Assembly: GCF_003611635.1 (NCBI RefSeq)
Contig: NZ_RAVZ01000002.1
Coordinates: 1-64,000 of the forward strand
Direction of reading: 5' to 3'
Length of the DNA: 64,000 nt
Origin: Corallococcus terminator
Lineage (GTDB): Bacteria > Myxococcota > Myxococcia > Myxococcales > Myxococcaceae
Shown: one piece after another, positions 10,810-36,578 of the stretch
Position numbering within the stretch: position 1 is the stretch's first letter
How the letters are laid out: every line of letters starts with the position of its first letter
Notes under the pieces: model-generated
The model's database searches: none
What the model was told of the DNA's origin: nothing
What the model saw: only the letters and a program-made list of their open reading frames with translations
Made by a program: the position numbers and the translations under genes

Positions 10810-10864
10810 CCTCCCGTCCTCTGGGCCGTATCCGAGTGCGACGGGACCCGACGTGGGCTCCCGC

Positions 10865-10885
10865 CACGCCCGGCGTGCGGGCGTG
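10865..10885 (+). terminator. Hairpin after the VWA gene
   Basis: The arms CACGCCCG (10865-10872) and CGGGCGTG (10878-10885) form 8 perfect pairs around a 5-nt loop, 55 nt after the VWA stop. No T-run follows, so termination by this hairpin alone is uncertain. Confidence 0.35.
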
Positions 10886-10976
10886 AGGAATGGCCGGCTG
10901 CCTGGAAGGTTGAGTGGACCCGCAGGGGACGCATCCCAGGTAGCACGGCGTTCCCAGGTGGATTAACGGGAGTCGC

Positions 10977-17820: not shown

Positions 17821-18735
17821 TCAAGCCGCCACGGGTTCAACGCGCTTGCGAGCCCGGGCGGAGACGCCTTTGCGGCGGCCCTTGCGCAGCACGTCCAGGT
17901 GCACCTCTTCGTCGTTGGCGAGCGCCATCAGTCGTTGTAGGTCGTCCACGCTGTTGACGGGCCGGCTGTTGATACCGAGCAGCAGGTCGTCGGGCTGGAG
18001 TCCCGCATCATCGGCGGGCGTGCCCTCCTGCACTCTCAGCACGCGCACGGCTCGGGGCTGGCCCGTGTCGCGAGCGAGCGCGGGCTCAAGGTTCACCGCC
18101 GTGGCGGCGATGCCCAGGAACTTCCGGTCCACCCGGCCGCGCTGGATGAGGAGGCTCGCCACCCACGCCGCCGTGGTCGCGCTCACCGCGAAGCCGATGC
18201 CCTGCGCATACGGCAGCACCAGCGTGTTGAGCCCCACCACGCGTCCGCGCGTGTCGAGCAGTGGCCCACCGGAGTTGCCCGGGTTGATGGCTGCGTCCGT
18301 CTGGAGCATCCCTTCCAGGACGACGCCGTCGGGCAGGTTGATGGAGCGGTTGATGGCGCTCACCACGCCCAGGGACACGGACTGCTCCAGGCGGAAGGGA
18401 TTGCCAATGGCCATCACGAGCTGGCCCACCTTCACCGTCTCCGGATCCGCGAGCGGCAGCGTGGGGAAGTTGTCGCCCTCCGCGCGCACCACCGCGAGGT
18501 CGGTGGGTGCATCCCCGCCCACCAGCGTGGCCCGGCGCTCCTCGCCGTTGTTGAGCTGCACGACGAGTCGCTTGGGCGTGCGCATCACGACGTGCCGGTT
18601 GGTGAGCACGTAGCCGTCCGGCGTGAGGAACAGGCCGGTGCCATGGCCCCGTGCGTGTTCCACGCCCACCACCGCTGGCGCGGCGCCAGCGACGAGGGAC
18701 TCCAGGTCATCGGAGAGCTGCTGCAACAGTTTCAT
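17821..18735 (-). CDS. HtrA-like serine protease with PDZ domain, no signal peptide
   Basis: A 304-residue protein with a trypsin-fold domain (residues about 10-195) and a PDZ domain (about 205-290). The triad is complete: His in LTNRHVV, Asp in PTDLAVV and Ser in NPGNSGGPLL. The N-terminus has no signal or membrane segment, so unlike DegP, DegQ or DegS it is predicted to be cytosolic. PDZ marks are LGIAATAV and GLQPDDLLLGINSRPV. It lies 12 nt after a paralogue and shares its transcript. AGGAG sits about 9 nt before ATG. Likely role: intracellular protein quality control or regulated proteolysis; targets unknown. Confidence 0.85.
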   Translation of the reverse strand: MKLLQQLSDDLESLVAGAAPAVVGVEHARGHGTGLFLTPDGYVLTNRHVVMRTPKRLVVQLNNGEERRATLVGGDAPTDLAVVRAEGDNFPTLPLADPETVKVGQLVMAIGNPFRLEQSVSLGVVSAINRSINLPDGVVLEGMLQTDAAINPGNSGGPLLDTRGRVVGLNTLVLPYAQGIGFAVSATTAAWVASLLIQRGRVDRKFLGIAATAVNLEPALARDTGQPRAVRVLRVQEGTPADDAGLQPDDLLLGINSRPVNSVDDLQRLMALANDEEVHLDVLRKGRRKGVSARARKRVEPVAA

Positions 18736-18747
18736 GGCCGGCTCCTT

Positions 18748-19638
18748 TCACGAACGCTTGCCCACGGTGACGGGCACCTCGCGCAGTTCGCCCGCGCGCA
18801 GCACCTTCGCCTGGATGGACGTGCCCACCTTCTCGTCGCCCAGGTAGCCCAGCAGGTCCTCCACGCCGTGCAGCGACTGGCCGCCCAGGCTCACCAGCAC
18901 GTCGCCCAGCAGCAGCCCGGCCTTCTGCGCGGGCCCTTCCGGATCCACCGACAGCAGGATGAGTCCCGCCTTGGTGCCGTCGATTTCCCGGGGCAGGCGC
19001 ACGGGGTAGGCGCCCACGCCCAGGTAGCCCCGGCGGATGCCGCCGTGCTCGCGCAGCGAGTTCGCCACGCGCGTCAGCGTGTCGCCGGGGATGGTGACCG
19101 CCGCGGTGCGCGAGAAGGCCGCCGTGGGGATGCCGAGGAAGCGGCCCTGCGCATCCACCAGCGCGCCACCGGAGAAGCCGGGCGGCAGGTCGGCGTCCGT
19201 TTCCAGGTAGCGGTCCACCTGTCCGCCCGCGTGCGTGCGCCAGTCGCCGCCGAACGCGCTGACGATGCCCAGCGTCGCCCGGGCGGTGCGCCCCGGACGG
19301 CCGATGGCCAGCACCACGTTGCCGACCTTCACGCCATCGAGCGGCGTGGGAGCGAGCGCGGTGAGGCCGGTGGTGTCGGCCTTGAGGAGTGCCAGGTCGG
19401 TGCTCGGGTCGCGGCCGATGAGTTCAGCGGAGACCGAGCGACCGTCCGCGAGGCCCACCTGGATGGAGCCTTCGTGTTCGACGGCGTGGCTGGTGGTGAG
19501 GATGTGACCGTCGGCATCCCAGACGATGCCGCTGGCGCCCCGGCGACGGCGGGCCTCGACGCGGACGATGGAGGGGGCGATGCGCTCGACGACGATGGCG
19601 ATGGACTGCGAGAGGGATTGGAGGGCGTCGGTGGACAT
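18748..19638 (-). CDS. HtrA-like serine protease with PDZ domain, no signal peptide (paralogue)
   Basis: A 296-residue paralogue and the upstream partner of the 17821 gene. The triad is present: His in LTTSHAV, Asp in STDLALL and Ser in PPGFSGGALV. The oxyanion segment reads GFSGG instead of the usual GNSGG, a small but noticeable change. A PDZ domain follows (LGVGAYPV, GLLLGDVLVSLGGQSL). Again no export signal. AGGAA lies before ATG at 19638. The two proteases are only about one-third identical by eye, so the duplication is old and the pair may act as hetero-oligomers or on different targets. Confidence 0.83.
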   Translation of the reverse strand: MSTDALQSLSQSIAIVVERIAPSIVRVEARRRRGASGIVWDADGHILTTSHAVEHEGSIQVGLADGRSVSAELIGRDPSTDLALLKADTTGLTALAPTPLDGVKVGNVVLAIGRPGRTARATLGIVSAFGGDWRTHAGGQVDRYLETDADLPPGFSGGALVDAQGRFLGIPTAAFSRTAAVTIPGDTLTRVANSLREHGGIRRGYLGVGAYPVRLPREIDGTKAGLILLSVDPEGPAQKAGLLLGDVLVSLGGQSLHGVEDLLGYLGDEKVGTSIQAKVLRAGELREVPVTVGKRS

Positions 19639-19795: not shown

Positions 19796-20644
19796 TCACC
19801 TCCGGTCGAGCAGGGCCCCACCCGGGCCGAAGCCCAGGGACATGCACAGCACCCGCTGTCCGGTGACCCGGGCGTCGCGCCGCGCGGATTCGGCTGCCAG
19901 CTCCGCGTCGTTGAGCACGAACACCGGTCCTCCTGTGTCCGGCAATCCGGCGCGGGCGAGGATGTCCGGCACGAGTGACGCCGCGCCCTCGAAGCCGTAG
20001 GTGCAGCCTCCTGGCAGCAGGTCCTCATCCAGTGGACACGGCAATGCGAGACACAGGGCGTCCGGCGCGGTCCGTGTGTCCTCCGCGAGGAACGTGCTCA
20101 GCGCGCCCGCGAAGAACGCCACGGTGTCCCGGAGGTGATGGCCGTCCTCGGGACGCGGCTGACCGATGAACAGCGGTGGCAGGTGGGACAGGTCCCGTTC
20201 GAAGACGCGCGTCGAACCGGAGCGCGCGCACTTGATGCTGGTCTGGCCCACGTCCACGCAGATTGGTGCGTGGAAGCCCTGGGCCTCCAGCATGCGCAGG
20301 CCCGCGCGCACGGGGGCGAAGCGTGGCGTCGGCGCGATGTACACCGAGCAGGGCAGTGCTGCCGTGGCTTCGTTCAACGCAGCCTGGAATCCGTCCAGCT
20401 CCGCCAGTCCTCCGCTCAGATACGCCGCATCCGGGGTGTGTCGCGCCACCAGCAGTTCGAGCGCTTCGGCCAGGGGCGGCATCATTCGCGCCGTGAGCGT
20501 GGTGCCGGCCACTCCCGCGCGCCGATCGTCCTCCACCCACGGAGAGCCCAGCACCTCCCACAGCTCGCGTCCGGACACGGGCAGGTTCCACACCTCCAGC
20601 GGGGTGATGCCCGTGGGATGGTGCCTGCTCGGACTCCAACGCAC
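19796..20644 (-). CDS. ROK-like (ASKHA) sugar kinase-type protein, apparently circularly permuted
   Basis: About 282 residues. The halves of a ROK-family protein occur in reversed order. The N-terminal half (residues 1-105) looks like the usual ROK C-terminus: PLAEALELLVARH, then AAYLSGGLAELDGF (the GGG adenosine-side motif), then APVRAGLRML. The C-terminal half begins with ICVDVGQTSIKCA (phosphate-1 loop), continues with LPCPLD and VLNDAELAAE (the catalytic-base region NDA) and ends at LGFGPGGALL (phosphate-2 loop). Third gene of an operon with a glycosyltransferase and an asparagine-synthetase-like gene. GTG at 20644 is used; a TTG at 20653 would overlap the upstream stop. Activity is unproven. 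Confidence 0.65.
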   Translation of the reverse strand: MRWSPSRHHPTGITPLEVWNLPVSGRELWEVLGSPWVEDDRRAGVAGTTLTARMMPPLAEALELLVARHTPDAAYLSGGLAELDGFQAALNEATAALPCSVYIAPTPRFAPVRAGLRMLEAQGFHAPICVDVGQTSIKCARSGSTRVFERDLSHLPPLFIGQPRPEDGHHLRDTVAFFAGALSTFLAEDTRTAPDALCLALPCPLDEDLLPGGCTYGFEGAASLVPDILARAGLPDTGGPVFVLNDAELAAESARRDARVTGQRVLCMSLGFGPGGALLDRR

Positions 20645-20649
20645 GGACG

Positions 20650-21843
20650 TCAAGCGACGAGTCCGGCGATGCGTTCGGCGGCGGTCCTGGCGCCGTCGTG
20701 GGCCCGGTAGGACCGGGAGATCTCCGCCACCCGCTCGCGCATCGGTGACGCGGGCGCGAGGAGCTGGGCGATGGCCTCCCGGCAGGTCTCCACCGTGAGG
20801 TGTCTCGGGTCCCTGGCGAGCCCCGCTCCGGATTTCTCCAGGAAGTGCGCCTGCACGGGCTGGTCGTTGCACACCGGCAGCAACAGCATCGGCACGCCCG
20901 CGGTCATCGCCTCCATCACGGAGTTGGCGCCTCCGTGGGAGATGAACGCGGTCGCGCGCTCCAGCACCTGTCGCTGTGGCGTGTACGGCACCGCCACCAC
21001 GTCACCGGGCAGCGTGTTCGGGAAATCCGTGTCGGCCAGCTCGCCCGCGCACAACACCAGCGTCACGCCGAAGGGCTGCGCGGCCTCCGCGATGAGACGG
21101 AACAGCTCCGGCTGATAGGAGATCTGGCTGCCGAAGGACACGTACAGCACGGGCTTGTCGCCCAGGCGCTCCCAGGGGAAGGGCACCTCGTCGCCCCGGG
21201 GTTCGGGTGGAGCCGACGGTCCGACGAGCAGTGTGTTCGGCGGCACTCCGGCGTCCGGGCCCAGGAAGGCCTCGGTGGCGAAGATGACGTTGAGCCGGGG
21301 CGACAGGCATTCGCAGGTGCGGAAGCGCGCGTCGAAGCCATGCCGCTGGAACAGGGCCTGTCGGTCCTCCTTGAGCGCGCCCACGTTGAGCAGCAGGGGA
21401 ATGTCTGGCCGGGGTTCCAGCAGCGTGAGCGCGGAGGACACGCCCGCCCACGGGATGCCCTCCGTGTGCGCCGCGAGCACCGCCGCGTATTGCATCCCGT
21501 CCAGGGCCATCACGTCGGGACGGAAGGCGCGCACCACCTCGCGCACCGGCTCCAGGAGCGCGGGGGCTGCGTCCAGCAGCAAGCCACGGATCCACTTGCC
21601 CAGCGCCACGTCGTCCAGCACCAACTTCGCCAGGGCTTCGCCACCGGTCTCGATGCCAGGGGGCTGCGCTTCGCGGTGGGGCAGGTGGAGGATTTCCACG
21701 CCCAGCCCGTCGAGTTGCGGCGTCGGTTCGGGGATGCACAGCCAACCGACGGTGTGCCCCAGCAGGCGCAGCCATTGGGCCACCCCGACCATCGGGTTCA
21801 CGTGGCCCTTCTCGGGCGAGGTGGCGATCAGGATTCGGGACAT
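20650..21843 (-). CDS. Glycosyltransferase, GT1 (macrolide/UGT type)
   Basis: A 397-residue soluble enzyme of the GT-B fold. The N-terminus has the acceptor-domain start RILIATSPEKGHVNPMVG. The C-terminal nucleotide-sugar domain shows LYVSFGSQ and the donor-binding HGGANSVMEAMTAGVPMLL followed by NDQPVQA, as in macrolide and flavonoid glycosyltransferases. It would move a sugar from an NDP-sugar to a small-molecule acceptor; both are unknown. The start overlaps the end of the asparagine-synthetase-like gene by 16 nt and the permuted ROK gene follows within a few bases, so the three are very likely co-translated as one small-molecule modification unit. Confidence 0.88.
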   Translation of the reverse strand: MSRILIATSPEKGHVNPMVGVAQWLRLLGHTVGWLCIPEPTPQLDGLGVEILHLPHREAQPPGIETGGEALAKLVLDDVALGKWIRGLLLDAAPALLEPVREVVRAFRPDVMALDGMQYAAVLAAHTEGIPWAGVSSALTLLEPRPDIPLLLNVGALKEDRQALFQRHGFDARFRTCECLSPRLNVIFATEAFLGPDAGVPPNTLLVGPSAPPEPRGDEVPFPWERLGDKPVLYVSFGSQISYQPELFRLIAEAAQPFGVTLVLCAGELADTDFPNTLPGDVVAVPYTPQRQVLERATAFISHGGANSVMEAMTAGVPMLLLPVCNDQPVQAHFLEKSGAGLARDPRHLTVETCREAIAQLLAPASPMRERVAEISRSYRAHDGARTAAERIAGLVA

Positions 21844-23543
21844 GGTGGATGCGCCTCGGTGTGGGCCTGGAGCATGGCCAGGGACACGAGTCGCATCAAC
21901 AACCGATCCATCACTCCTGCCTGCGCGTCCCCGGGCGACAGGCGCGTGTAGCGCTCCAGCAGCCGGGAGACGGCCCCGGGGTCGATGACCTGGAGGGGCT
22001 CCAGGCGCTCGGGGGATAGCCAGGCGCGGTACAGCTCCAGCCAGCGCGCCCGCACCGGACTGGAGAGCGCCGTGTGCCCATACCGGGGCAGCTTGCGCGC
22101 GAGGCGCACCTCGTCGGGCACGAGCGAGCGCACCGCGTGCCGGAACAGCCATTTGCCGAACCCGTCTCGCATCAGTACGGACTCCGGCAGCCCGAGCGCC
22201 ACCCGAGCGAAGCCCGGGTCCAGGTACGGCGTGCGGACCGTGAGGCCATGGGCTCGTGCGCCTCGCAGTTCGGGCGGGAGGATGAGCTCCCGCAGCACCC
22301 ATTCGGCGTAGCGAAGCTCTCCGGAAGCAGAGGCGTCCCCCGGCGGCAGATCCCACGGAGCAGGCAGCGAGGTGAGCGCCGCCCCCAGGTTGTCCACAGG
22401 GGGGGATGCCGGCGCGTGATCGCTGTTCACGCCCTCGGAAACACCCCTCAAGTTGTCCACAGGCTGGCGATTGCCGCGAGGGCTCGCCGTTTGATCGCGA
22501 CCCTGGGTTCCAGAGGGAGCGGGCCCGGTTTCTCCGGTGGACGACTCCTCGGTGGCTCCCGGTTCCTGATCGCGGGCCCCCACTGAGTCCAGAGGCGTTC
22601 CCGAGTTGTCCACAGCCCCCCCAGGGGTTTGGAGGGCGTCCTCATGATCGTGCGAGCCGCCCCGGAGCGACGCCCGCAAGTTGTCCACAGCCGCCCGGGC
22701 GTCATGTCTCAAGACCTCCACGGCCAGGGCCCGGTCCTCATCCACGCGTGCCTTCGCGGAGACCATCGCGCCCGGGGTGCCCTGGAGCACTTCATCCGCG
22801 CCCGCGCCGCTCAAGAGGACGGGGCCCGCGCCCAGCCGGTGGGCCTCCAGGTAGAAAACGAAGCTCGCCACGGCGCGGGCGTTGAGGATGACGGTCTGGT
22901 TGGCGAGGACCGCGTGCTCGAACTGGTCCGGCAGCACGGCGTCGGGGATGAGCACATCCACCAGCTCCGCGCCCGTTACCTGCGCCATCCGCCGCGCGTT
23001 GCTCCGCTCCACCGCGTCCGCGAAGTGCACATCCATGGTCCACGCGCGCACCTGGCCGTGGGCATGGCGCGCGACCATCGCGCACAGGGCCGCGCTGTCC
23101 ACCCCGCCGCTCAGGCTGACCTCATGCGTGCCAGCCTCCACGTGGGCCCGCACGGTGTCGGACCAGACAGCCAGAAGCCGATCCGCGAGCGTGTCCTCGT
23201 CTTCACGCGTGTTCGCTGGCCGGGTCACGCGCGGCAGCGTCACCTCCAGCGACTCCGCCCCAGGCACCAGGGTCGCGTTGGATGCGCGTCCGTGGCACAG
23301 CAATTCGGCGACCGCCTGGGCGGAGAGGCCGTGCGCGGACGCTCTTCCCTGGGGTGGCGCGTTGGGAGTCCGGATCGGCATGCGGGCCGCATCATAGAGG
23401 CTGTGTCCGCGCTTGACCGCTCCCGTCGTCTCGGAGGGCGCGAGCGCTTTGGACAAGGCCTGGTCCGTTGCGCCGGCCAGGGAGGAGGCGAGTACGAAGC
23501 CGAGCCGTGAAGCCCCGCGGTGGGTGAGCTTGTGCGATGACAT
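21828..23543 (-). CDS. Asparagine-synthetase-like ATP-dependent enzyme with tandem-repeat insertion
   Basis: A 571-residue protein. The adenylating domain has the PPi loop VSLSGGVDSAAL near residue 144, LSGAGADEV near 255 and, towards the end, TVRTPYLDPGFA and RKLPRYGHTAL. The glutaminase domain that normally fills the first 200 residues is reduced to about 105 residues and has no N-terminal catalytic Cys, so glutamine is probably not used. That situation is known from beta-lactam synthetases and lasso-peptide cyclases. Residues about 283-395 are an inserted, proline/glycine-rich region of 25-residue repeats centred on VDN. First gene of a three-gene operon. No lasso precursor, PqqD-like or transglutaminase gene is nearby. 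Confidence 0.8.
   Translation of the reverse strand: MSSHKLTHRGASRLGFVLASSLAGATDQALSKALAPSETTGAVKRGHSLYDAARMPIRTPNAPPQGRASAHGLSAQAVAELLCHGRASNATLVPGAESLEVTLPRVTRPANTREDEDTLADRLLAVWSDTVRAHVEAGTHEVSLSGGVDSAALCAMVARHAHGQVRAWTMDVHFADAVERSNARRMAQVTGAELVDVLIPDAVLPDQFEHAVLANQTVILNARAVASFVFYLEAHRLGAGPVLLSGAGADEVLQGTPGAMVSAKARVDEDRALAVEVLRHDARAAVDNLRASLRGGSHDHEDALQTPGGAVDNSGTPLDSVGARDQEPGATEESSTGETGPAPSGTQGRDQTASPRGNRQPVDNLRGVSEGVNSDHAPASPPVDNLGAALTSLPAPWDLPPGDASASGELRYAEWVLRELILPPELRGARAHGLTVRTPYLDPGFARVALGLPESVLMRDGFGKWLFRHAVRSLVPDEVRLARKLPRYGHTALSSPVRARWLELYRAWLSPERLEPLQVIDPGAVSRLLERYTRLSPGDAQAGVMDRLLMRLVSLAMLQAHTEAHPPCPES
22390..22692. repeat. In-frame ~75-bp tandem repeats with DnaA-box-like core
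   Basis: GTTGTCCACAG occurs four times in the same orientation; its 9-base core TTGTCCACA starts at 22390, 22453, 22606 and 22681. A decayed copy (TTTCTCCGG) sits near 22529, where the missing member is expected. TGATCG accompanies the units at 22417, 22492, 22567 and 22645. Unit lengths are 63, 75, 78 and 75 bp, all multiples of three, so the array is read through as 21, 25, 26 and 25 residues of the asparagine-synthetase-like protein. The core equals the TTGTCCACA DnaA box preferred in Streptomyces. Confidence 0.8.
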
Positions 23544-23625
23544 GGGAAGCCTTCGGGAAGATGCCGGATCCAAAGGGCTGCCAGAGCGGGTGGGCTATCC
23601 TCACGCGAACAGGGGAGGGCGGGAC

Positions 23626-25563
23626 ATGCGGGAGGATGCGATGGACGTCGTGTTGCGGGAGCGCTTCGGTCTGGATTCATTCCGGCCCGGACAGCGCGAG
23701 GTGCTCACGGCCCTCTTGAAGCCCCAGGGCTCCGCGCTCGCGGTGTTCCCCACGGGGGGCGGCAAGTCGCTGTGCTACCAGCTCCCCGCGCTGCTGCTCG
23801 AAGGACTCACGGTGGTGGTGTCGCCGCTCATCGCGTTGATGAAGGATCAAATCGATTCGCTGAGCCGCAAGGGCATCCGCGCGGCGCGGCTGGATTCGTC
23901 CCTGTCGCTGGAGGAGTCGCGCGAGGTGACGGAGTCCCTGCGGGACGGGTCGCTCAAGCTGCTCTACGTGGCACCAGAGCGCTTCAACAACGAGCGCTTC
24001 ATGGGCCTCTTGAGCGAACTCCCCATCTCGCTGTTCGCGGTGGATGAAGCGCACTGTGTCTCCGAGTGGGGCCACAACTTCCGTCCGGACTACCTCAAGC
24101 TCGCGCAGGCGGCGAGGACGCTGAACGCCGAGCGCATCCTGGCGCTCACCGCCACCGCGACACCGCAGGTGGTGCATGACATCTGCGAGGGCTTCGGCAT
24201 CCCGGAGCAGAACGCGATCGTCACCGGCTTCTACCGGGGCAACCTCACGCTGGAGACGACGCCCACGGGCATCGAGGCGCGCGACGCGCTGCTCGTGGAG
24301 CGGCTGAAGTCCCGCCCGACCGGCTCCACCATCGTCTACGTCACGCTCCAGAAAACCGCCGAGCGCATCGCGGCGCTCCTGTCCGCGGCGGGGCTGCCCG
24401 CGAGCGCCTATCACGCGGGCCTGGAGTCGGAGGACCGCGAGCGGGTGCAGGAGTCATGGACCCACTCCGCGAAGGGCATCGTCGTGGCGACCATCGCGTT
24501 CGGGATGGGCATCGACAAGGCGGACGTGCGCGCCGTGTATCACTACAACCTGCCCAAGGGCCTGGAGAGCTACAGCCAGGAGATCGGCCGCGCGGGCCGG
24601 GACGGCAAGCCATCAGTGGTGGAATTGCTGGTGTGTCCGGACGACGTGCCCACGCTGGAGAACTTCGCGCTCGGGGACACGCCGCTGCCGGAAGCGCTGG
24701 AGGGACTGGTGACGGGCCTGCTGGCCGCCGGGCCCGAACTGCACCTGGACCTGTACGCGCTGGGCAACCGTCACGACCTGCGGCCGTTGGTGCTGCGCAC
24801 GGCGCTGACGTACCTGGAACTGGAAGGTGTGTTGAAGCAGGGCACGCCGTTCTACGCAGGCTACAAGGTGCAGCCGACGGGCACGTTGGAAGCGCTCATC
24901 GGGAAGTTCCAGGGGGAGCGAGCACGCTTCGTGAAGGACCTCTTCGCGCACGCGAAGAAGGGACGCACCTGGTACACGTTCGATCCCGCCGAGATTTCAA
25001 AGGCGATGGGACAGCCGCGCGACCGCATCGTGAAGGCGCTCGACTACTTCCAGGAGCAGGGCTACGCCGAGACGCAGGTCGCGGAACCCCGCCAGCGCTA
25101 CACGCGGCTGCGCGAGCACGAAGACGCGCAGGCCCTCGTGTCCCTGTTGCAGGAGCGCTTCCAGAAGCGCGAGGCGCAGGAGGTGTCACGGGTGCGGGAG
25201 GTGCTCAAGCTCGTCACGCACGACGGATGCCAGAGCAACGCGCTGGTGGCCCACTTCGGAGAGCAGCGCGAAGCCCCGTGCGGACACTGCACGTTCTGCC
25301 GCACCGGTGTGGCCCGCGTGCTGCCGCCGCCGCATCCCCGGCCGGACCTGCGTGAACAGCTCGACGCGGCCACGTTCCGGTCCCTCGTCACGAAGCACCC
25401 GGACGCACTGGGCCACCCGAGGCAGGCCGCGCGCTTCCTCTGCGGCCTGAGCAGCCCCGCGCTGTCCAAGGCGAAGCTCAACGGGAACAAGCTCTTCGGC
25501 ACCCTGACTGAGTGGCCGTTCGCCCAGGTGCTGGCTTTCTGCGAGGAGCGCCCCAGGCGCTAG
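23626..25563 (+). CDS. recQ: RecQ-family ATP-dependent DNA helicase
   Basis: A 645-residue superfamily-2 helicase that unwinds DNA 3' to 5' in recombination and repair. Motifs in order: FPTGGGKSLCYQLP (I), VSPLIALMKDQ (Ia), DEAHCVSEWGHNFRPDY (II and the RecQ aromatic loop), LTATATP (III), STIVYVTLQKT (IV), VATIAFGMGIDK (V) and QEIGRAGRDG (VI). A zinc-binding segment follows with cysteines in HDGCQSN and CGHCTFC. The C-terminal end shows no clear HRDC domain. Two starts are plausible, ATG at 23626 and at 23641, each behind a GGGAGG-type site. A radical-SAM gene begins 1 nt after the stop. Confidence 0.9.
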   Translation: MREDAMDVVLRERFGLDSFRPGQREVLTALLKPQGSALAVFPTGGGKSLCYQLPALLLEGLTVVVSPLIALMKDQIDSLSRKGIRAARLDSSLSLEESREVTESLRDGSLKLLYVAPERFNNERFMGLLSELPISLFAVDEAHCVSEWGHNFRPDYLKLAQAARTLNAERILALTATATPQVVHDICEGFGIPEQNAIVTGFYRGNLTLETTPTGIEARDALLVERLKSRPTGSTIVYVTLQKTAERIAALLSAAGLPASAYHAGLESEDRERVQESWTHSAKGIVVATIAFGMGIDKADVRAVYHYNLPKGLESYSQEIGRAGRDGKPSVVELLVCPDDVPTLENFALGDTPLPEALEGLVTGLLAAGPELHLDLYALGNRHDLRPLVLRTALTYLELEGVLKQGTPFYAGYKVQPTGTLEALIGKFQGERARFVKDLFAHAKKGRTWYTFDPAEISKAMGQPRDRIVKALDYFQEQGYAETQVAEPRQRYTRLREHEDAQALVSLLQERFQKREAQEVSRVREVLKLVTHDGCQSNALVAHFGEQREAPCGHCTFCRTGVARVLPPPHPRPDLREQLDAATFRSLVTKHPDALGHPRQAARFLCGLSSPALSKAKLNGNKLFGTLTEWPFAQVLAFCEERPRR

Positions 25564-25564
25564 G

Positions 25565-26368
25565 ATGCACTCCGTGCGCTATGAGCTTCACGACAGCCGC
25601 GTCCTCACCTGGTCCCTGGAGACGCACGTCACCACGCACTGCAACCTGCGCTGCGTGCAGTGTTGCCCGCTGTCCCCGCACCTGCCCGCGTGGGCCGTCT
25701 CCCCAGAAGCGCTGGGCGAGGACCTGCGCAAGCTCGCGCGCGTGCTCAAGCCCAACGTCTTCAAGCTCACCGGCGGCGAACCCTTCCTCCACCCGGACCT
25801 GCCCGCCGTGCTCGACCAGGTGCGCGCCTCCGGCATCTCCGAACAGGTGTCCATCACCACCAACGGCTTCCTCGCCCAGAGCGCTCCCGACGCCGTCTAT
25901 GAGCGGCTCGACCGGATGACCCTGTCCGTCTACACCTCCGCGCCGCTGCCCGAACGCTCCATCGCTCGCATCACCGAGCGCTGCGAACGCCACGGCGTCC
26001 ACCTCTCCGTGAAGCACATCGACGCGTTCCAACGCATCACCCCGGACGCGCCGCTGGACTCCGATGCGGCCATCCAGGACGTCTTCGCGAAGTGCTGGCT
26101 CAAGCACCGCTGCCACCTCGTCTACCGGGGCCGCTTCTTCACCTGCACCCGCCCGCCCCACGTCGCCACCGTGCTCGCAGCGCAGCACCCACACCTGCCC
26201 GCGCTCGCGGAGGCGGATGGCCTCTGGCTCGACAGTCCGGAGCTGCTCTCGGGCCTCCTCGCCTACCTGGAGCGAGACACGCCCCTGGCGACCTGCCAGC
26301 ACTGCCTGGGCTCCAGCGGCCCGTGGGAACCCCACGCGCAGCTTCCTCGTCCCCGCGCGGCTACCTGA
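25565..26368 (+). CDS. Radical SAM protein
   Basis: A 267-residue protein. The radical-SAM cluster motif CNLRCVQC (CxxxCxxC) lies near residues 29-36, followed by the GGE motif in KLTGGEPFLHPDL and a partial TIM barrel (VSITTNGFL, MTLSVYTSA, LSVKHIDAF). The C-terminal part carries additional cysteines (KCWLKHRC, FTCTRPP, CQHCLGSSG) that could bind a second cluster as in SPASM or twitch domains. The reaction cannot be told. Translation begins 1 nt after the recQ stop codon, so expression is coupled to the helicase, an unusual neighbour. Confidence 0.82.
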   Translation: MHSVRYELHDSRVLTWSLETHVTTHCNLRCVQCCPLSPHLPAWAVSPEALGEDLRKLARVLKPNVFKLTGGEPFLHPDLPAVLDQVRASGISEQVSITTNGFLAQSAPDAVYERLDRMTLSVYTSAPLPERSIARITERCERHGVHLSVKHIDAFQRITPDAPLDSDAAIQDVFAKCWLKHRCHLVYRGRFFTCTRPPHVATVLAAQHPHLPALAEADGLWLDSPELLSGLLAYLERDTPLATCQHCLGSSGPWEPHAQLPRPRAAT

Positions 26369-29678: not shown

Positions 29679-30977
29679 TTACCCCGGAGTCGCAAGCTCG
29701 CTACGGAAGGGGAGCGGCTTGGCGGACGGTGGGAATGCCTCCGCTTCGCTCGCCGCCACCTCGGGCGCGGGCCAACCCAGGTTGCGCAGCGCCGCGGTCA
29801 ATCGCTCGCACAGCGCGACCACGCTGTCCTCGGGGGCCCCCGCCAGCTCCAACGTGAAGCGCTCCCGCGACACCTGCGTGAGCCGGAACGCGCGCAGCGG
29901 GTGATGTTTGAACACCCACGCCAGGGCCCACGCATCCACCGCGCGTCCCGCCGGCGTGTGGAACGTGCAGGCCCCCCGTCCGCCGAAGCCCGTCAGCGTC
30001 CAGCCGTGAAAGCCGCAGGTGCAGGCGTCCCTGCGGACGGTGCCGGTGTCGCCCGGCCGGTAGCGCAACAGCGGCAGCACGCTGGGCCGCAGCCGCGTCA
30101 CCACCACTTCCTCCCCGTCCGGCTCCAACCAGACATCCGGCGTGAGCACGTGGAAGCGGCCCGGGTTCGCGTCCTCGCGGCACTCCCATGCGAGTGGCCC
30201 CGTCTCCGTGGCGGCGTAGTAGTTGAGGACCGGCACGCCCCGCTCGCGCTCCCACGCGTCGCGCAGCGCTCGCGGCAGGTGCTGCGCGGAGGTGAGCACC
30301 AGCCGGGGGGCGGGCACCTCCGGATGGGCCAGCAACCAGCGCAGCCCTTCCGGGTCGGAGAAGACGACGGCCGCGCGCACCCGCTGCAAACGCGCCACCG
30401 CGTCATCGCGCAGCACGGAGACGCGGTGCAGGGCGCCGTCATGGAAGAGGGGCAGCCGCACCGAATACTCCAGCCCTCCCGGCAGCACGTCCAGCAACAC
30501 CACGCGCGGGCGCGGCGGCGGCACCGTGCCGGTGTGTTCGGTGAAGAAGCGCAGCACGGCCCACATCAAGAGGCAGTCGCGCCTGTCTCTCAGCACGTTC
30601 ACCGGATCGCCCGTGGTGCCGGAGCTCTTCACCACCACGCACTCGTCGGACGCATCCGGCAGCGTGGGCACGTCCTCCCAATGGCGCGCGAGCGTCGCGC
30701 GGTCCAGCGCCGGGAAGTGCCGCAGGTCCTCCAGCCGCTGGAGGTCTCCCGGGTGCAGCCCCGCCTCCCGCAACACCCGCACGTAGTAGGGCGAACCCTG
30801 GAGCGCCTGCCGCAGCCAGCCCAGGCGCGACTCCAGCGCCGCGCGGGCCACGGCCTCGTCCACCGTGGAGGCGCCGCGCGAAAGCCCCGCGGCCACGTCC
30901 AGCGCCCACGGCAGGTGGGGCCGCTGGGTCTGGGCATCGCGGCGGATGCGGGCCCTGGGGGCCACTGCCAACGTCAC
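29679..30977 (-). CDS. PaaK/CapK-like adenylate-forming enzyme (last gene of the MoxR-VWA operon)
   Basis: A 432-residue protein of the phenylacetate-CoA ligase / CapK branch of the ANL superfamily. The ATP loop VVKSSGTTGDPV lies near residue 118, the A5-type motif YYAATETGPLAWEC near 240 and the hinge Asp region LRYRPGDTG near 320. A CTCG cysteine pair just after is also seen in PaaK-like enzymes. It should activate a carboxylate as acyl-AMP; no carrier protein is evident. GTG at 30977 overlaps the stop of the 187-residue gene (GTGA), so this enzyme is co-translated with the AAA+/VWA genes, an unusual combination. Confidence 0.78.
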   Translation of the reverse strand: MTLAVAPRARIRRDAQTQRPHLPWALDVAAGLSRGASTVDEAVARAALESRLGWLRQALQGSPYYVRVLREAGLHPGDLQRLEDLRHFPALDRATLARHWEDVPTLPDASDECVVVKSSGTTGDPVNVLRDRRDCLLMWAVLRFFTEHTGTVPPPRPRVVLLDVLPGGLEYSVRLPLFHDGALHRVSVLRDDAVARLQRVRAAVVFSDPEGLRWLLAHPEVPAPRLVLTSAQHLPRALRDAWERERGVPVLNYYAATETGPLAWECREDANPGRFHVLTPDVWLEPDGEEVVVTRLRPSVLPLLRYRPGDTGTVRRDACTCGFHGWTLTGFGGRGACTFHTPAGRAVDAWALAWVFKHHPLRAFRLTQVSRERFTLELAGAPEDSVVALCERLTAALRNLGWPAPEVAASEAEAFPPSAKPLPFRSELATPG

Positions 30978-31537
30978 TCGCGCCAGCCCCGGGCCTCGGC
31001 GTCCTTCTGCTGGGCCTCCTGCAACATCTTCGTGCGCCGGTCCGCCTCCTGCTTGCGCGCCTCCTCCACCTTGCGCAGGTCCGTGACGGCCTGCCGGTAG
31101 TCCAGGGCCTTCAGGCGCTCCTTCGACTGCTGCTCCGTCTCACCTTCGATGTCCGCGCCCAGCGCGGAACACCACTTGCGCAGGAACTCCTCCTGGCGGA
31201 AGGCGTTGGAGCGGATCATCTCCGCCGTCAGCGGGTTCACCTCCTCGAAGAACTGCTGGAGGCGCGCCATCGGGGTGCGGTCCGCGGTGAGGTAGAGCAC
31301 CGTCTTCTTGCGCAGCTCCGACGCCACCAGCACGTGCGCGAGCATGCCCACCTGTTCGCGGAACAGCGGGTTCTTCACCCACTTCTCCAGCTTCTCCCAC
31401 TCGGCCTCGGAGGGAGGCTTCTGGCTGCCCTGGCGGAAGGTGTCGCAGATGATGGCCACCGCCAGGTCGTGCGGATACGGCGACACGATGGGCGAGGCCG
31501 CCAGTTGATCACGAAGGTGTGCGAGCGAGATCGCCAT
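30974..31537 (-). CDS. Unknown 187-residue protein with C-terminal coiled coil
   Basis: Fourth gene of the five-gene operon. Residues 1-130 are helical and soluble (HLRDQLAASPIVSPYPHDLAV, NPLFREQVGMLAHVL), without cysteine pairs, signal or membrane segments. Residues about 135-185 are rich in Glu, Lys, Gln and Ala and should form a coiled coil (LRKVEEARKQEADRRTKM). No family is recognised. The start overlaps the VWA gene stop by one base (TGATG) and its own stop overlaps the next start by 4 nt, so it is translated in fixed proportion with its partners. A role as structural or adaptor subunit is inferred from that. Confidence 0.7.
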   Translation of the reverse strand: MAISLAHLRDQLAASPIVSPYPHDLAVAIICDTFRQGSQKPPSEAEWEKLEKWVKNPLFREQVGMLAHVLVASELRKKTVLYLTADRTPMARLQQFFEEVNPLTAEMIRSNAFRQEEFLRKWCSALGADIEGETEQQSKERLKALDYRQAVTDLRKVEEARKQEADRRTKMLQEAQQKDAEARGWRE

Positions 31538-33216
31538 CAGTTCTCCAACAAGGCATCGGCCAGCGCCGCGGCGGCGGGACCGAAGTCAGACATCCATTGC
31601 ACTGTCGCCAGCCGGAAGCGCTTGTCCGCGAGCACCGGCGCCAGCACCAGCCGGGCGCGTTGCTCATCCGGCACCGCGAGGAAGGCCACCACCCGGCGTG
31701 ACTTCTTCATCGCGCGGGACAGGCGCGCCAGCGCATCCGGGTCCTGCATGTTCGACAGGAAGTCGCTGTCGGAGATGATGACCCGCAGCACGTCCGGCCG
31801 CTCCTGGGACAGCTTCTCCATCTCCTCCACCGGGAACCACGTCCCCCCGCCGATGTAGTGCAGGAGGAAGTCGCGCGCCGTCTCCTCGTCGTACATCCAC
31901 GGGGAGATGAAGGGCTGCCGGTCCGAGTACACGATGCCGCGCACCGTGGCGCCCTTGCGCAGCGCGGACGCCGCCAACACCTGCGCCGCCAGCGTCATCG
32001 AATTGAGCTGGTGCTCGGGGTTGGGCATGGAGCCGCTGGTGTCCAGGTACAGCTCCACCGCCGGCACGCCCAGGTCCGACGGCGGCGGCAGGTCCGCCTC
32101 CAATTCGCGACGCAGGGGCGCGATGGCGGCCAGGTGCCCCTGCGACACCACCGTGAGCGTCCAGTCGATGGTGGACGGGTCGTCGCCGTACTCCCACGCC
32201 TCCGGCGTCGTGCGCAGGTACGGCTCCGGCTTCGCCGGTGAGGATGGAAGCTTGAGGATGTACCGGTCCACCAGCCGCCGGTAGTGCCGGGCGACCAGGG
32301 CCCGCCGCAGCTTCCCGCCGCCCTTGCCGGGCAGGTGCTCCGTCACGCGGGCGATGGTGGTGAGCGGATCCGCGTCCTTCGTGTCGTGCGTCGCGTCCAG
32401 CCAGCCCTGCTCGCGCGCCTCCGCCAGTGCGTCCTCCCACCGTCCGCCGGCCTGCACCGCCGCGTCCACGTCGCCCTCGTCCGGACCGGGCACGTCTCCG
32501 GCGAGCGGGATGCGGAAGCGCAGCTTGCCGGGCGCGTCGATGTAGCGGATGAACGCGGCGCAGAAGTAGAGGAACTGGAGGCGCGGGTCGGGCAGCGCGT
32601 AGAACGTCTGCACGAACAGGCGGGCCTGGATGCGGAAGCCCGGGTAGTCCCGCTCCAGCGTCTCCAGGCGCCCCTTGGGCACGAGGTCGCCGTGCGGCTT
32701 GCGCCACAGCTCCTCGTAGAGGGCCAGGTAGAAGCAGAACAGCGGGCTCGTGCCTCCGGCCGGGTCCTGCCCCTTGTCTGGCGCGCGGAGGAAGCCCCGG
32801 TACACCTCGCACAGGGCTTCGGCGTGGGTGCGCCCCACGAACTCGTTCACCTGGAGGTCGAAGAACAGGTTGGTGAGCGACTGGCCCAGTCCGGGCAACA
32901 GCCGCTGCTCCAGCACGCGCAGCTCCGCGTCCCACCCGAGCGTGTGCGGGAAGCGCACGTGGTGCCCGATTTCGTGCGCCAGCACGGCGGTGAGGCTGTC
33001 GCGCGCGCCCATGCGGTCCAGCAGCTCGAAGTGGACGAACACCTGCCGGCGCACCATGTCGATGTACGCGAGCGGTTCGTCCTTCACGTCCTCGCCGGGA
33101 CGGAACGGCTGGTGGGGCTCTGGCGGGCTCAACTGCACGCGCACGTCCCACAGCGCCAGCGCGTCGTGCCAGCACCGCTCCACCTCCTCGGGCGTGAAGG
33201 TCGCGCGCCGGGTCAT
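31537..33216 (-). CDS. HExxH metallopeptidase-like plus VWA domain protein
   Basis: A 559-residue protein with two recognisable parts. The N-terminal part carries an HExxH site, AVLAHEIGHHVRF at residues 77-89 (H81, E82, H85), followed by a conserved-looking acidic helix FFDLQVNEFVGR that could supply the third zinc ligand. The C-terminal part is a VWA domain with a full metal-adhesion motif LDTSGSM (D392) and VIISDSDF. Proteins joining a metallopeptidase-like region with a VWA-like domain (as in DUF2201 families) typically partner MoxR ATPases, and a MoxR gene is two genes upstream. The stop and start overlaps with both neighbours are 1 and 4 nt. Protease activity is not proven. Confidence 0.8.
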   Translation of the reverse strand: MTRRATFTPEEVERCWHDALALWDVRVQLSPPEPHQPFRPGEDVKDEPLAYIDMVRRQVFVHFELLDRMGARDSLTAVLAHEIGHHVRFPHTLGWDAELRVLEQRLLPGLGQSLTNLFFDLQVNEFVGRTHAEALCEVYRGFLRAPDKGQDPAGGTSPLFCFYLALYEELWRKPHGDLVPKGRLETLERDYPGFRIQARLFVQTFYALPDPRLQFLYFCAAFIRYIDAPGKLRFRIPLAGDVPGPDEGDVDAAVQAGGRWEDALAEAREQGWLDATHDTKDADPLTTIARVTEHLPGKGGGKLRRALVARHYRRLVDRYILKLPSSPAKPEPYLRTTPEAWEYGDDPSTIDWTLTVVSQGHLAAIAPLRRELEADLPPPSDLGVPAVELYLDTSGSMPNPEHQLNSMTLAAQVLAASALRKGATVRGIVYSDRQPFISPWMYDEETARDFLLHYIGGGTWFPVEEMEKLSQERPDVLRVIISDSDFLSNMQDPDALARLSRAMKKSRRVVAFLAVPDEQRARLVLAPVLADKRFRLATVQWMSDFGPAAAALADALLEN

Positions 33217-34043
33217 GTCGGCAGGATGACCGCCAGCCACTGGGACGTGTGCATCGTGGCCACCGCGCGCCATTCGTTGCTCAGCGTGCTGTACCAGTCG
33301 CCCGCGCGCGGGTCGCGCTGTGACAGGGAGGTGATGGCCTTGACGGTCATGCGCGTGGGCTCCAGCCGTTCGTTGCAGCCCATGGGCCCCAGGAGCATGG
33401 GCTTCTTCGTGAGCCACACGCCCTGCGTGGCCGCGTCGCGTCCTCCGGCGGCGGTGGCGCGGTGCCGGTCGTGCACGCACACCACGGAGGGCGCCAGGAA
33501 GTGCACCTCCCCCGGCATGAAGCGGCTGTCCTCCTGCGACAGGTCCACCCACAGCGCGGTGGACGTGTCGCCCAGCGTGTCGGAAGGCGGCTCCATCGCG
33601 GCGTTGGCGATGGCGTGCAGGTGGCCCTCGATGTCGTTCAGCGAGGGCATGTTCGTGCCCACGCGGCAGAACAGGCGCTGCACCCAGGGGGGCGCGGACT
33701 CCAGGTTCTCGCTCAGGTTCCACATCCGCGCGAGCGCCGCGGCCTGCTGCTCCGAGGGCAGCCGGGGCAACAGGCGCGGCACCAGCTCCGACCACGCGAG
33801 CGTGAAGAAGTTCTGCCGCCCGGCGGAGGTCGGGTACAGGTAGCCCAGGCCGATGCCCTCGGCGCCCAGGCGCAGGTAGTTGCGGAGGATCTGCTCGCCC
33901 TGGGCCGCGTCCTGACCGGAGGCCGCCATCGCCTGGCCCATGCGCGCCACCGGGCCGCTGAGAAAGCCCGTCCACAGCGCGCGGTCCCAGCGCACGAAGC
34001 GCGAGCGCGCCTCCTTCTCCACGGTGTCGACGAACTCGCTCAT
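33213..34043 (-). CDS. Unknown 276-residue protein of the MoxR-VWA operon
   Basis: Second gene of the operon, overlapping the MoxR gene stop and the VWA gene start by 4 nt each. The N-terminal 110 residues are helical (FVRWDRALWTGFLSGPVARM, EQILRNYLRLGAEGIGLGY). The C-terminal half is beta-rich (ALWVDLSQED, EVHFLAPSVVCVHD, WLAVILPT) and has a few cysteines without a metal-site pattern. No signal peptide, membrane segment or known catalytic motif is seen. Being fixed between the ATPase and the VWA protein, it is likely a subunit or substrate adaptor of the same complex. No family recognised. Confidence 0.7.
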   Translation of the reverse strand: MSEFVDTVEKEARSRFVRWDRALWTGFLSGPVARMGQAMAASGQDAAQGEQILRNYLRLGAEGIGLGYLYPTSAGRQNFFTLAWSELVPRLLPRLPSEQQAAALARMWNLSENLESAPPWVQRLFCRVGTNMPSLNDIEGHLHAIANAAMEPPSDTLGDTSTALWVDLSQEDSRFMPGEVHFLAPSVVCVHDRHRATAAGGRDAATQGVWLTKKPMLLGPMGCNERLEPTRMTVKAITSLSQRDPRAGDWYSTLSNEWRAVATMHTSQWLAVILPT

Positions 34044-35575
34044 GGCTGACCGCCCGGGTTTTCCTTCAGCCACGTCGCGTAGTTGCGATAGCGGCTGTAG
34101 AGGGATTTCAAGTGGATGATGTCTTCGTACACGGGGCCGGAAAGCTCGTGGCGGGACATCAGCTCGTTCATCAGCACGGTGACGGCGGACAGGCGCTTCT
34201 CGGTGGTGCGCAGGTCCACGCCAGACAGGCCCAGGTCCAGTTCGGTGCGAAGCTGGACGACCTTCTGGCGCAGCGGCGCGTGCGTGCCGTAGCGGGCCAT
34301 GGCCATGTCGAACATGTTGCGGATCCACGCCACGCGGTCCTGGAGCAGCAGCTTGTTGCCCTTGCCTTCGAAGAAGGGGCTGCGCGCGTTGGGGGTGAGC
34401 TTCTCGTGCAGCACCCAGGGGATGATCTGCCGGAAGTCCTCCAGCTCCACCGCGCGGTGGCCCCGGAAGAACGCGAGCGCCTTCGCGAAGTGCAGGATGG
34501 TCTGGTACGCGCGCACGCTGGTGCCGTTCTCCGTCTGCGTGCAGAGGTGCACCTTCTTGTCCAAGGGGCACTGCTCGTTGCACACCGCGGACACTGTCTG
34601 GCCGGCGAGCTTCAGCGTGTCCTTGTGCTTGAACTCGAAGCGCGGGGACGCCATGCGGCAGAAGTCGAGCTGACCCAGGAAGAAGGCCACGCGCTCCAGC
34701 GCGCCCTTGGGCACCTCCACGGCGAGGATGGCGTTGTAGGCCTTCTCCAGTTCGCCCGGCGTGAAGACGATGTCCTTGGGGAGCATCTCCTCCGGGGACT
34801 TGTCGGACTCGATGCGCTGGAGCAGCGTGTCCACGAAGCCGGAGTTGAAGGGAACCGCGCGCACCACGACGTCGATGCGGTCCTTGAGCGCTTCGATGAC
34901 CTGGAAGGTGCCGCCGCCCTGGTCGTCGTTGGCGGTGAGGAACCAGGACGAGCGACCGGTGTAGACGTACTGGTCCATCATCTCCGCGTAGCCCTCGCCC
35001 AGCAGCGACAGCAGGGCGGACTGGGTCTTCGTGGGGATGCGGTTGTACTCGTCGATGATCTTCACGCGCTGGCTGATCCACTTGCGCCAGCTCACCTTGA
35101 CGGCGGACAGGTCCTCCGCCTTGAGCATGTCCGACGGCAGCGGCGCGCCCAGCAGGTCCGCGATGGACAACTGCGGATGTCCGCGCTGGATGCCCCGGTG
35201 CACGTCCTCGCGGCCCATGCCGGACAAGAGCGCCATGAGGATGGCGCTGGTCGTCTTGCCCCGGCCCGGGCCGCCGACGAGCAGGGCGCGGCGGCAGGTG
35301 AAGAGGGTGAGCAGCGGGATGAGGACGAAGGAGCTGTAGCTCATGTCCTCCGGCAGGTGCAGCTCATCCCCGGCGGCGTTCTTCAGCGCGGCGGTGCCGC
35401 CGAATTCGATGTCGTAGTAGGGGCAGATGACGGCGTTGTTGGTGATCCACCAATACGCCTGCCGCATCTTGTCGTGGAGGCTGCCGCCGTCGCGCTCGGA
35501 GAGGTGGACGCTGAGGCCCTTGTCCGCCGATGCGCGTCCGGTGAGCAGGCGCGAAACCCAATCCTGGTTGGCCAT
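34040..35575 (-). CDS. MoxR-type AAA+ ATPase
   Basis: A 511-residue AAA+ ATPase, larger than the usual 330-residue MoxR. Walker A is GGPGRGKTT near residue 100, Walker B with the MoxR-specific pattern IDEYNRIPTKTQSALL near 185, sensor 1 LTANDDQGGGTFQVIEALKDRID near 225. About 230 C-terminal residues follow, with several cysteines (CNEQC, VHLC) that could form a small metal site. MoxR ATPases work with VWA proteins to insert cofactors or remodel complexes. It starts a five-gene operon with every junction overlapping. No good ribosome site precedes ATG 35575; the promoter probably lies in the 80-bp gap upstream. Confidence 0.88.
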   Translation of the reverse strand: MANQDWVSRLLTGRASADKGLSVHLSERDGGSLHDKMRQAYWWITNNAVICPYYDIEFGGTAALKNAAGDELHLPEDMSYSSFVLIPLLTLFTCRRALLVGGPGRGKTTSAILMALLSGMGREDVHRGIQRGHPQLSIADLLGAPLPSDMLKAEDLSAVKVSWRKWISQRVKIIDEYNRIPTKTQSALLSLLGEGYAEMMDQYVYTGRSSWFLTANDDQGGGTFQVIEALKDRIDVVVRAVPFNSGFVDTLLQRIESDKSPEEMLPKDIVFTPGELEKAYNAILAVEVPKGALERVAFFLGQLDFCRMASPRFEFKHKDTLKLAGQTVSAVCNEQCPLDKKVHLCTQTENGTSVRAYQTILHFAKALAFFRGHRAVELEDFRQIIPWVLHEKLTPNARSPFFEGKGNKLLLQDRVAWIRNMFDMAMARYGTHAPLRQKVVQLRTELDLGLSGVDLRTTEKRLSAVTVLMNELMSRHELSGPVYEDIIHLKSLYSRYRNYATWLKENPGGQP

Positions 35576-35655: not shown

Positions 35656-35910
35656 ATGAAGGCCCTCTGGTGTGTCCTGGCCCTGGCGACCCTCGCGGTG
35701 CTGCTGTCCTGCGCGTCCCTGCCGTGGTCGCCGTTCGACTCGGAGGCGCGCTCCGAGGCGCGATTGGACACGGTGGCCCCGAGACAACCGGAGACGCACA
35801 CCCTCCAGGACGCGGGGCTTCGCTTCAGAGCGTCACGAGCCCCAGCCGCGCGGCGCGCACCACGGCCTCCGTTCGCCGCTGCACGCCCAGCTTGGCCAGC
35901 ACCGCGTTGA
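35656..35910 (+). CDS. Possible small lipoprotein, 84 residues, overlapping the next gene's 3' end
   Basis: ATG at 35656 opens an 84-codon frame. The first 22 residues look like a lipoprotein signal with lipobox VLLSC ([19 protein letters not shown]), and third positions are GC-rich to about 35810. Beyond that the frame overlaps, in antisense, the last 86 bp of the LuxR-type gene, and its composition becomes proline/arginine-rich and non-protein-like. It may be a real short lipoprotein that has lost its original stop, or a chance frame. The ribosome site is weak. Confidence 0.35.
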
Positions 35911-36457
35911 CGTGGAACTTGGCCGTGTGCTCGCTGATGGCGAGCCGGTCCGCGATGGCCTTGTTCGACAGGCCCTCCGCCAGCAGGCCCAGCACCTCGC
36001 GCTCGCGCGGCGTCAGCGTGTCCTGTGGTGCCGGTGCTCCGGACGGGGCCGTGTTTCGCGGTGCGGCGCGGACTTGCGACAGCCCGGGCTCGAACACGGT
36101 GAGCCCGCGCGCCACGGCGTGCAGCGCGGCCACGAGCATCTCCGGCGCCACGTCGCGGAACAGCAGCCCGCGCGCCCCCGCGCCCAGCGCCAGTTCTCCC
36201 GCCGCTTCGTCCGCCACCAGCGCCAGCACCGGCGCGCCCAGGTCCGGCGCCGCGCCCTCCGTCAGCCGCAGGCCCGTGTCCCAGAGCACCACGTCGGGTG
36301 GTCCGCTCCGCGCCGTCTCCAGCTCCACCTGCGTGCCGGAGGCCACCACCGTCCAACCCTCCCCCTGGTCGCTCAAGGCCCGTGCGAGCGCACCCCGGGC
36401 CAGGGGGTCCTCCGAGACGAGGGCGAGCCGCTGCGATGAAGGGGGCGCATCCAACAT
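35825..36457 (-). CDS. LuxR/NarL-type regulator with degenerate receiver domain
   Basis: A 210-residue protein. The C-terminal 65 residues form a NarL/LuxR helix-turn-helix ([22 protein letters not shown], then [18 protein letters not shown]). The N-terminal domain has the length and pattern of a receiver: the acidic pair in [10 protein letters not shown] and the phospho-site position in DVVLWDTGL are kept. The switch Thr/Ser after strand 4 reads ALVADEA and the strand-5 Lys is missing ([10 protein letters not shown]). It is probably a pseudo-receiver controlled without normal phosphorylation. Start at 36457 (MLDAPPS) has GAGGGG just upstream. Divergent to the S41 peptidase gene. Confidence 0.78.
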
Positions 36458-36578
36458 GGGCCCCTCATCCCTAACCGCCCCCGCCGCGTTCGCCACACCG
36501 CACGGCGCCGGAAGCCCTTTGCTTCCCTCTGGGCGCCGGGCCTGTGAAGAATCGTGAAGTCCCCACGGGAGGTGGCAG

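Follow-up and report, generated by a model that had tools for sequence, protein, structure and literature searches.

A conserved five-gene operon of Corallococcus terminator that links a MoxR–VWA pair to an adenylate-forming enzyme and a small helical protein with a C-terminal glutamate

Introduction

The myxobacterium Corallococcus terminator possesses an operon of five overlapping genes, designated A–E, in the 64,000-nucleotide stretch analyzed here (contig NZ_RAVZ01000002.1, positions 1 to 64,000; hereafter, the window). They encode a MoxR-type AAA+ ATPase (A), a protein composed of a helical solenoid and a beta domain (B), a protein combining an HExxH metallopeptidase-like domain with a VWA domain (C), a small helical protein (D), and a PaaK-like adenylate-forming enzyme (E). 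In this study, we found that A–E are a real conserved unit that is common to distant bacteria, beyond what chance would give, and that D, where its gene lies near E, ends in Glu in nearly every case. Because the pairing of D with E and the terminal Glu of D recall LysW and the pearlins, we favor a carrier- or tag-based pathway with a MoxR machine. A–E would then form the conserved core of a pathway for biosynthesis or protein modification; E would serve D, a carrier-like protein, and the product would be remodeled or released by A–C. We hold this reading tentatively and with less than even confidence.

The five-gene unit is apparently new to the literature, in that no description of the set was found in the literature searched. 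A preliminary description of the operon, made from the sequence, had called the combination one not known from any described system; this apparently holds for the five-gene set, but a MoxR gene accompanied by an HExxH–VWA fusion is not unique, since DUF2201 proteins offer another case. If our reading is true, this would be, to our knowledge, the first AAA+ MoxR–VWA motor in a carrier-protein or protein-conjugation pathway.

Results

Conservation of the five-gene unit

Open reading frames and junctions were read directly from the window sequence. All five genes lie on the − strand, and neighboring genes overlap by 4, 4, 1, and 4 nt in the order A to E. The overlaps reported previously at 34040–34043, 33213–33216, and 30974–30977 (4 nt each) and at 31537 (1 nt) proved exact, and 4-nt junctions are frequent again in the five-gene relatives.

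Gene A (34040..35575, 511 aa), which is 43–99% identical over all relatives, is present in 16/16 sampled Corallococcus genomes (the other 15 at 95–99% identity) and in 27 genomes of the Myxococcus-type genus g41. A tblastn comparison showed the order A-B-C-D-E in those loci of Corallococcus, Myxococcus, Pyxidicoccus, and Archangium whose flanks are long enough, and gene content is constant in the Corallococcus and Myxococcus-type loci with intact flanks. Full five-gene sets are also found in a myxobacterium of another family (L047), in two metagenome-assembled genomes (MAGs) of the Planctomycetota sample (L121 and L122), and in a 'Proteobacteria' MAG (L046). More divergent sets, in which A is 43–57% identical, are sporadic: A was matched at an E-value of 1e-60 in 14/343 genomes of the Planctomycetota sample and in 26/331 genomes of another phylum's sample. 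These sets have a B-like protein between A and C (hhalign profile match to B: probability 84, E-value 8e-6), and D and E are often next. The preliminary description had held that the operon would be a chance arrangement if the five genes were not together elsewhere or if the adenylating gene were routinely absent; our neighborhood survey across Myxococcota, Planctomycetota, and other MAGs found the five genes together, with the adenylating gene not routinely absent. In one MAG (PMG_225, G007; L004/L025), A and B are interrupted or frame-broken into two pieces each, possibly by an assembly error.

A second, paralogous A-B-C-D cluster occurs in large-genome Myxococcus species (L084:3895-10348 on the − strand, L085, and L087) and also in L139 and L143. 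In all of these, an unrecognized gene F and a radical SAM gene stand where E would be; in the large-genome Myxococcus clusters, F is ~245 aa long, the radical SAM gene has CNLRCPFCFSRS, and D ends in Trp.

Pairing of D with E and the C-terminal Glu of D

Gene E (29679..30977, 432 aa, GTG start) encodes an adenylate-forming enzyme as judged from Pfam, NCBIfam, and invariant residues. It matches AMP-binding PF00501 with 36.8 bits (cut-off 29.9) and aligns over most of its length with the PaaK structure PDB 2y4o (E-value 5e-28). T122 and G123, E258, R305, Y306, G309, and D310 (the RYxxGD motif), and K420 are invariant throughout the relatives. The equivalog score of the phenylacetate-CoA ligase family TIGR02155 is not reached (37 bits, cut-off 646.3), and the best NCBIfam match is to the DVU_1553 family (79 vs the cut-off of 300). 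The earlier suggestion that the adenylating enzyme goes together with the MoxR/VWA pair is supported.

Gene D (30974..31537, 187 aa), the proposed carrier or tag, is all helical in its predicted structure (pLDDT 87.5), with a long, charged C-terminal helix of 39 residues. No Pfam family scored above its cut-off, and no fold match was obtained at an E-value of 0.001. The protein has two scattered Cys residues, and its terminus is ARGWRE, with a conserved GWRE ending. Reading 72 D proteins to the stop codon, 55 of which are encoded near E, revealed a terminal Glu in 52 of these 55 (GWRE, YGGE, VSRE, PSGE, etc.), with Asp in one and Leu in two; the two Leu-ending proteins are extra copies, each next to a partner ending in GRRE. 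After clustering at 60%, the terminal Glu was found in 17/19, giving a crude binomial p of 3e-17 against an assumed background of 8%, a value that is indicative only, as the sequences are related. D ends in Trp in 6/6 of the clusters that have F and radical SAM genes without E. In G279, the D of the A–C cluster ends in APPK and the D beside E ends in DTRE. The terminal Glu codon is GAG or GAA and is kept also where D and E do not overlap (e.g., L121, L147, and L181); the explanation that the 4-nt overlap forces a Glu codon by chance was therefore rejected.

We searched for E in 16 system-bearing genomes, chosen mainly because E does not lie beside A–C in them, and found it in 13. The three genomes in which it was not found are G822 and G689, both known only for the F/radical-SAM type, and G195, a MAG with a split cluster. 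In nine fetched loci with E away from A–C or past the first stretch (L173 and L175–L182), D lies near E. Taken together, E is nearly always present and, when apart from A–C, is usually still beside D. Over all loci, the distance matrices of A, C, D, and E show mutual correlation (Mantel r 0.92–0.97, 0/999 permutations), with r 0.94–0.97 between E and the other three; within the close class, the Mantel r is 0.84 for A–E and 0.96 for C–E.

The MoxR–VWA–metallopeptidase part

The assignment of A to the MoxR type follows from the reading frame and Pfam: AAA_lid_2 scored above its cut-off, AAA_3 and AAA_5 scored just under theirs, and Walker motifs are present, with the P-loop GGPGRGKTT. Gene B (33213..34043, 276 aa) has no Pfam match, and a distant homolog occupies the same place in other loci. 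Its AlphaFold2 model (pLDDT 90) displays a helical solenoid at residues 1–150 and a beta domain at residues 160–276; the latter aligned with parts of propellers at VIA-align Z 7–8, within the background stated by the tool, and gave no Foldseek match at an E-value of 0.001. The modeled solenoid and beta-domain fold is compatible with an adaptor role, without proving one.

Gene C (31537..33216, 559 aa) carries HExxH within AHEIGHH, and Peptidase_M48, which scored above its cut-off around this motif, is the sole Pfam family matched by the protein. The VWA half is not recognized by Pfam; however, it contains the MIDAS-type motifs DTSGSM, GGGT, and ISDSD, and an hhalign match to the VWA part of DUF2201 (probability 78) supports the assignment. 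Among 18 sequences with identities down to 23%, H81, E82, G84, H85, N116, D120, N124, D392-x-S394-G395-S396, and D483 are invariant, and the Met after D392-x-S-G-S and the GGGT region are likewise kept. Because their catalytic residues are invariant, C and E look like active enzymes.

Within Corallococcus, dN/dS was 0.04–0.14 for A (strong constraint), 0.17–0.25 for E (moderate constraint), and 0.2–0.7 for B, C, and D; only the contrast between these values is meaningful, as synonymous rates are depressed in GC-rich genes. A client that changes could account for the fast pace of B, C, and D.

The wider neighborhood

The operon belongs to a wider conserved neighborhood, not noticed in the preliminary description, whose other part lies at window positions 19796–26368. 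Gene R (25565..26368, +, opposite to A–E) encodes a 267-aa radical SAM protein with the motif CNLRCVQCC (PF04055, 1.7e-10). Gene J (21828..23573, −; start probably near 23381) encodes an AsnB-like ATP-dependent amide synthetase without a glutaminase domain, with PF00733 (1.5e-38) as its sole Pfam match. Gene K (20650..21846, −) encodes an MGT-family (macrolide-type) glycosyltransferase, which matches TIGR01426 at 2.8e-44, below the cut-off of that family, and UDPGT above its cut-off. Gene M (19796..20872, −; start probably near 20650) has no Pfam match and appears ASKHA/ROK-like from a VDVGQT motif recognized by eye.

The R-J-K-M set has the same relative orientation in Myxococcota and Planctomycetota, with R opposite to A–E and J-K-M along them. 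It follows the operon in Myxococcus and Pyxidicoccus (L034–L042 in part, L187–L191) and in Planctomycetota (L121 and L122), and it is inserted between C and D in L132; a PIG-L deacetylase gene is added in L121, L122, and L132. In the window, genes for a RecQ-type helicase, a sensor kinase, and an aldo/keto reductase separate the two parts of the neighborhood. The helicase gene, recognized by eye, lies at 23413–25563 (+), divergent from J; in L041/L042, R, J, K, and M stand side by side with no such gene among them. Other radical SAM genes accompany the F-type clusters and the L135/L144/L178–L180 type, and none were seen in the remaining divergent (class II) loci. Two tandem radical SAM-like motifs or genes (CNRxCPWC and CNARCxFCVEEL) come after E in L144, L178, and L179. 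A ribosomally synthesized and post-translationally modified peptide with a separate short precursor gene was considered and rejected: in L132, where A–E and R-J-K-M-N are packed almost gapless, no such gene was obvious, in a search that was not exhaustive.

Immediately upstream of A–E, at window positions 35825–36496 (−), is a gene for a LuxR-type protein, which is a candidate regulator of the operon; Myxococcus has one in the same place (L090:7994-8638). In the myxobacterial locus L083, a gene for a WD40 beta-propeller protein (10434–12320, −) lies upstream of A. Downstream of M, the window contains two adjacent genes for HtrA-like trypsin/PDZ proteases (17821–19638, −).

Discussion

For the pathway that we favor, we infer a carrier step with adenylation of D, tethering, peptidase action, and a released product. 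E would activate a carboxylate with ATP, and the activated moiety would end on, or derive from, the C-terminal Glu of D, making D a carrier or tag protein. The tethered moiety may then be elaborated by R, J, and K, as radical SAM enzyme, amide synthetase, and glycosyltransferase, respectively. The MoxR ring of A, with B as a putative adaptor and C as VWA co-chaperone, would capture a substrate, either the D conjugate or some other protein, and remodel it by hydrolyzing ATP; cleavage by the HExxH domain of C would release the product or regenerate D. In known MoxR–VWA pairs, the VWA domain captures a client, which is then remodeled (PMC7159879, section 8; NorQD, PMC13036017); C would add a site for cutting or for metal binding. 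The preliminary description had proposed an ATP-driven complex using an acyl-AMP step for ligation or tagging, and the acyl-AMP part of this proposal gains unexpected support from the conserved C-terminal Glu of D. Rather unlikely as a whole is the more specific version, a new carrier or tag system in which the C-terminal Glu of D is adenylated or loaded by E, the tethered group is elaborated in a radical SAM-centered pathway, and the conjugate is extracted and cut by MoxR-driven A-B-C.

Several observations weigh against the carrier reading. The terminal Glu of D could serve for docking and not for conjugation. D is without the Cys cluster of LysW, judging from its residues, and E is an ANL enzyme, not an ATP-grasp or PafA-type enzyme as in known C-terminal-Glu systems. 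The peptidase activity of C is assumed from the HExxH motif alone. The D–E link is not always local: in L142, L184, and L186, D ends in RE although the stretch fetched has no E. A-B is split from C in some genomes: the operon is split in some Planctomycetota MAGs, and in G195, C stands alone on L043 (8001–9692) with A-B on another contig (L109, 8613–10980). Lastly, the R-J-K-M set is missing from the divergent classes and may be a client pathway instead of a part of the machine.

The main alternative, almost as likely as the reading that we favor, is a MoxR–VWA maturation chaperone, in which A-B-C, with or without D, act on one enzyme of the linked pathway (e.g., the radical SAM enzyme or E), either by inserting a metal or cofactor or by remodeling it; HExxH would be metal-binding or structural only, and D would be a structural subunit whose tail docks on E. 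Characterized MoxR–VWA pairs are maturation machines, as in metal insertion by NorQD (PMC13036017) and the cases reviewed in PMC7159879, three of the classes, among them the one that lacks E, have linked radical SAM genes, and a docking motif would also look like a conserved tail. However, none of the candidate client enzymes is linked throughout the classes, class II loci apart from L144 being without a nearby radical SAM gene, and a chaperone by itself leaves unexplained why it is the terminal Glu that is invariant and why genomes have E even where it is unlinked.

It is improbable that E, R, J, K, and M make up a secondary-metabolite pathway, with E as its free acyl/aryl-CoA or acyl-AMP enzyme, and that A–D are an unrelated protease/chaperone unit that is co-regulated by chance. 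Although E resembles PaaK and enzymes such as J, K, and R are typical of secondary metabolism, the D–E linkage survives without R, J, K, and M and without A–C, E co-diverges with A, C, and D, and the terminus of D tracks E.

Given the fixed chromosomal site with conserved flanks in two genera (16/16 Corallococcus and 27 second-genus genomes), the constant gene content without a variable effector, the metabolic nature of the linked genes (radical SAM, AsnB-like, and glycosyltransferase), a P-loop that differs from the GXXXTAKS variant reported for FtsH and beta-propeller types (PMC7159879), no convincing PADLOC match, no relative of C in viral contigs, and no plasmid relative of the query protein P0003, we rejected defense as the leading idea, and a conflict system of the MoxR–vWA ternary type with E or C as effector, at which the preliminary description had hinted, is very improbable, even though such systems are enriched in multicellular bacteria and present in planctomycetes (Kaur et al. 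2020, PMC7159879) and B, C, and D evolve faster than A.

The association, seen in several phyla, of a MoxR–VWA pair with an adenylating enzyme and with a small helical protein whose C-terminal Glu is conserved provides a specific residue to test, and genetic work is possible in Myxococcus and Corallococcus. Should D prove to be a carrier or tag, the core genome of Myxococcus and Corallococcus, and planctomycetes as well, would contain a system for conjugation or biosynthesis that is widespread and unannotated, and the linked radical SAM, amide synthetase, and glycosyltransferase genes would point to an unknown metabolite or modification.

Comparison with known systems

The ternary systems of Kaur et al. 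share with A–E a MoxR AAA+ ATPase, a vWA partner, and more subunits in one operon, as well as occurrence in planctomycetes and multicellular bacteria. Here, in contrast, the VWA domain is fused to HExxH, an adenylating enzyme and radical SAM genes are linked, and neither a VMAP, iSTAND, FtsH, or beta-propeller component, judged from the Pfam scans of B and D, nor a variable effector was recognized. A beta-propeller ternary system (subsystem 4 of Kaur et al.) was rejected, as the beta domain of B gave background-level Z scores and no Foldseek match and the P-loop variant is another.

DUF2201 proteins (PF13203/PF09967) combine HExxH with a downstream VWA domain in a single polypeptide encoded next to an AAA gene (L153 and L154) and have, like C, a similar N-x3-D-x2-VN motif after HExxH. 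However, the DUF2201 loci seen consist of two genes only, and their similarity to C is detectable only in the VWA part by profile. We rejected membership of C in this family: DUF2201_N did not match C in the Pfam scan, and PF13203 had no match in the C. terminator genome at an E-value of 0.1. NorQ/NorD, RavA/ViaA, and related chaperones (PMC13036017, PMC9976466, and PMC10585395) share the MoxR ring and VWA co-chaperone; here, the VWA partner has a metallopeptidase-like domain, and three more near-constant subunits, including the adenylating enzyme, are present.

PaaK phenylacetate-CoA ligases align with E over most of its length and share its catalytic residues, whereas E is far under the TIGR02155 cut-off. 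LysW carries its substrate on a C-terminal Glu (PMC10433800), and the LysW/ArgW carriers resemble D in this conserved residue (EDWGE; RGWRE in D) and in an adjoining carboxylate-activating ligase. D differs in having neither a Cys/Zn cluster nor EDWGE and in being larger and helical, and E belongs to the ANL enzymes, whereas LysX is an ATP-grasp enzyme. In pearlin biosynthesis, a carrier peptide serves as the scaffold, radical SAM chemistry takes part, and a metalloprotease frees the product (PMC9303977). No PEARL (LanB-like) ligase was recognized in the Pfam and NCBIfam scans of the neighbors, in which no search was aimed at PEARL. The pathway proposed here would share with the pearlin pathways a small molecule at the C terminus of a gene-encoded carrier, together with a radical SAM enzyme and a metalloprotease, but its carrier is ~190 aa long and release would be coupled to a MoxR–VWA motor.

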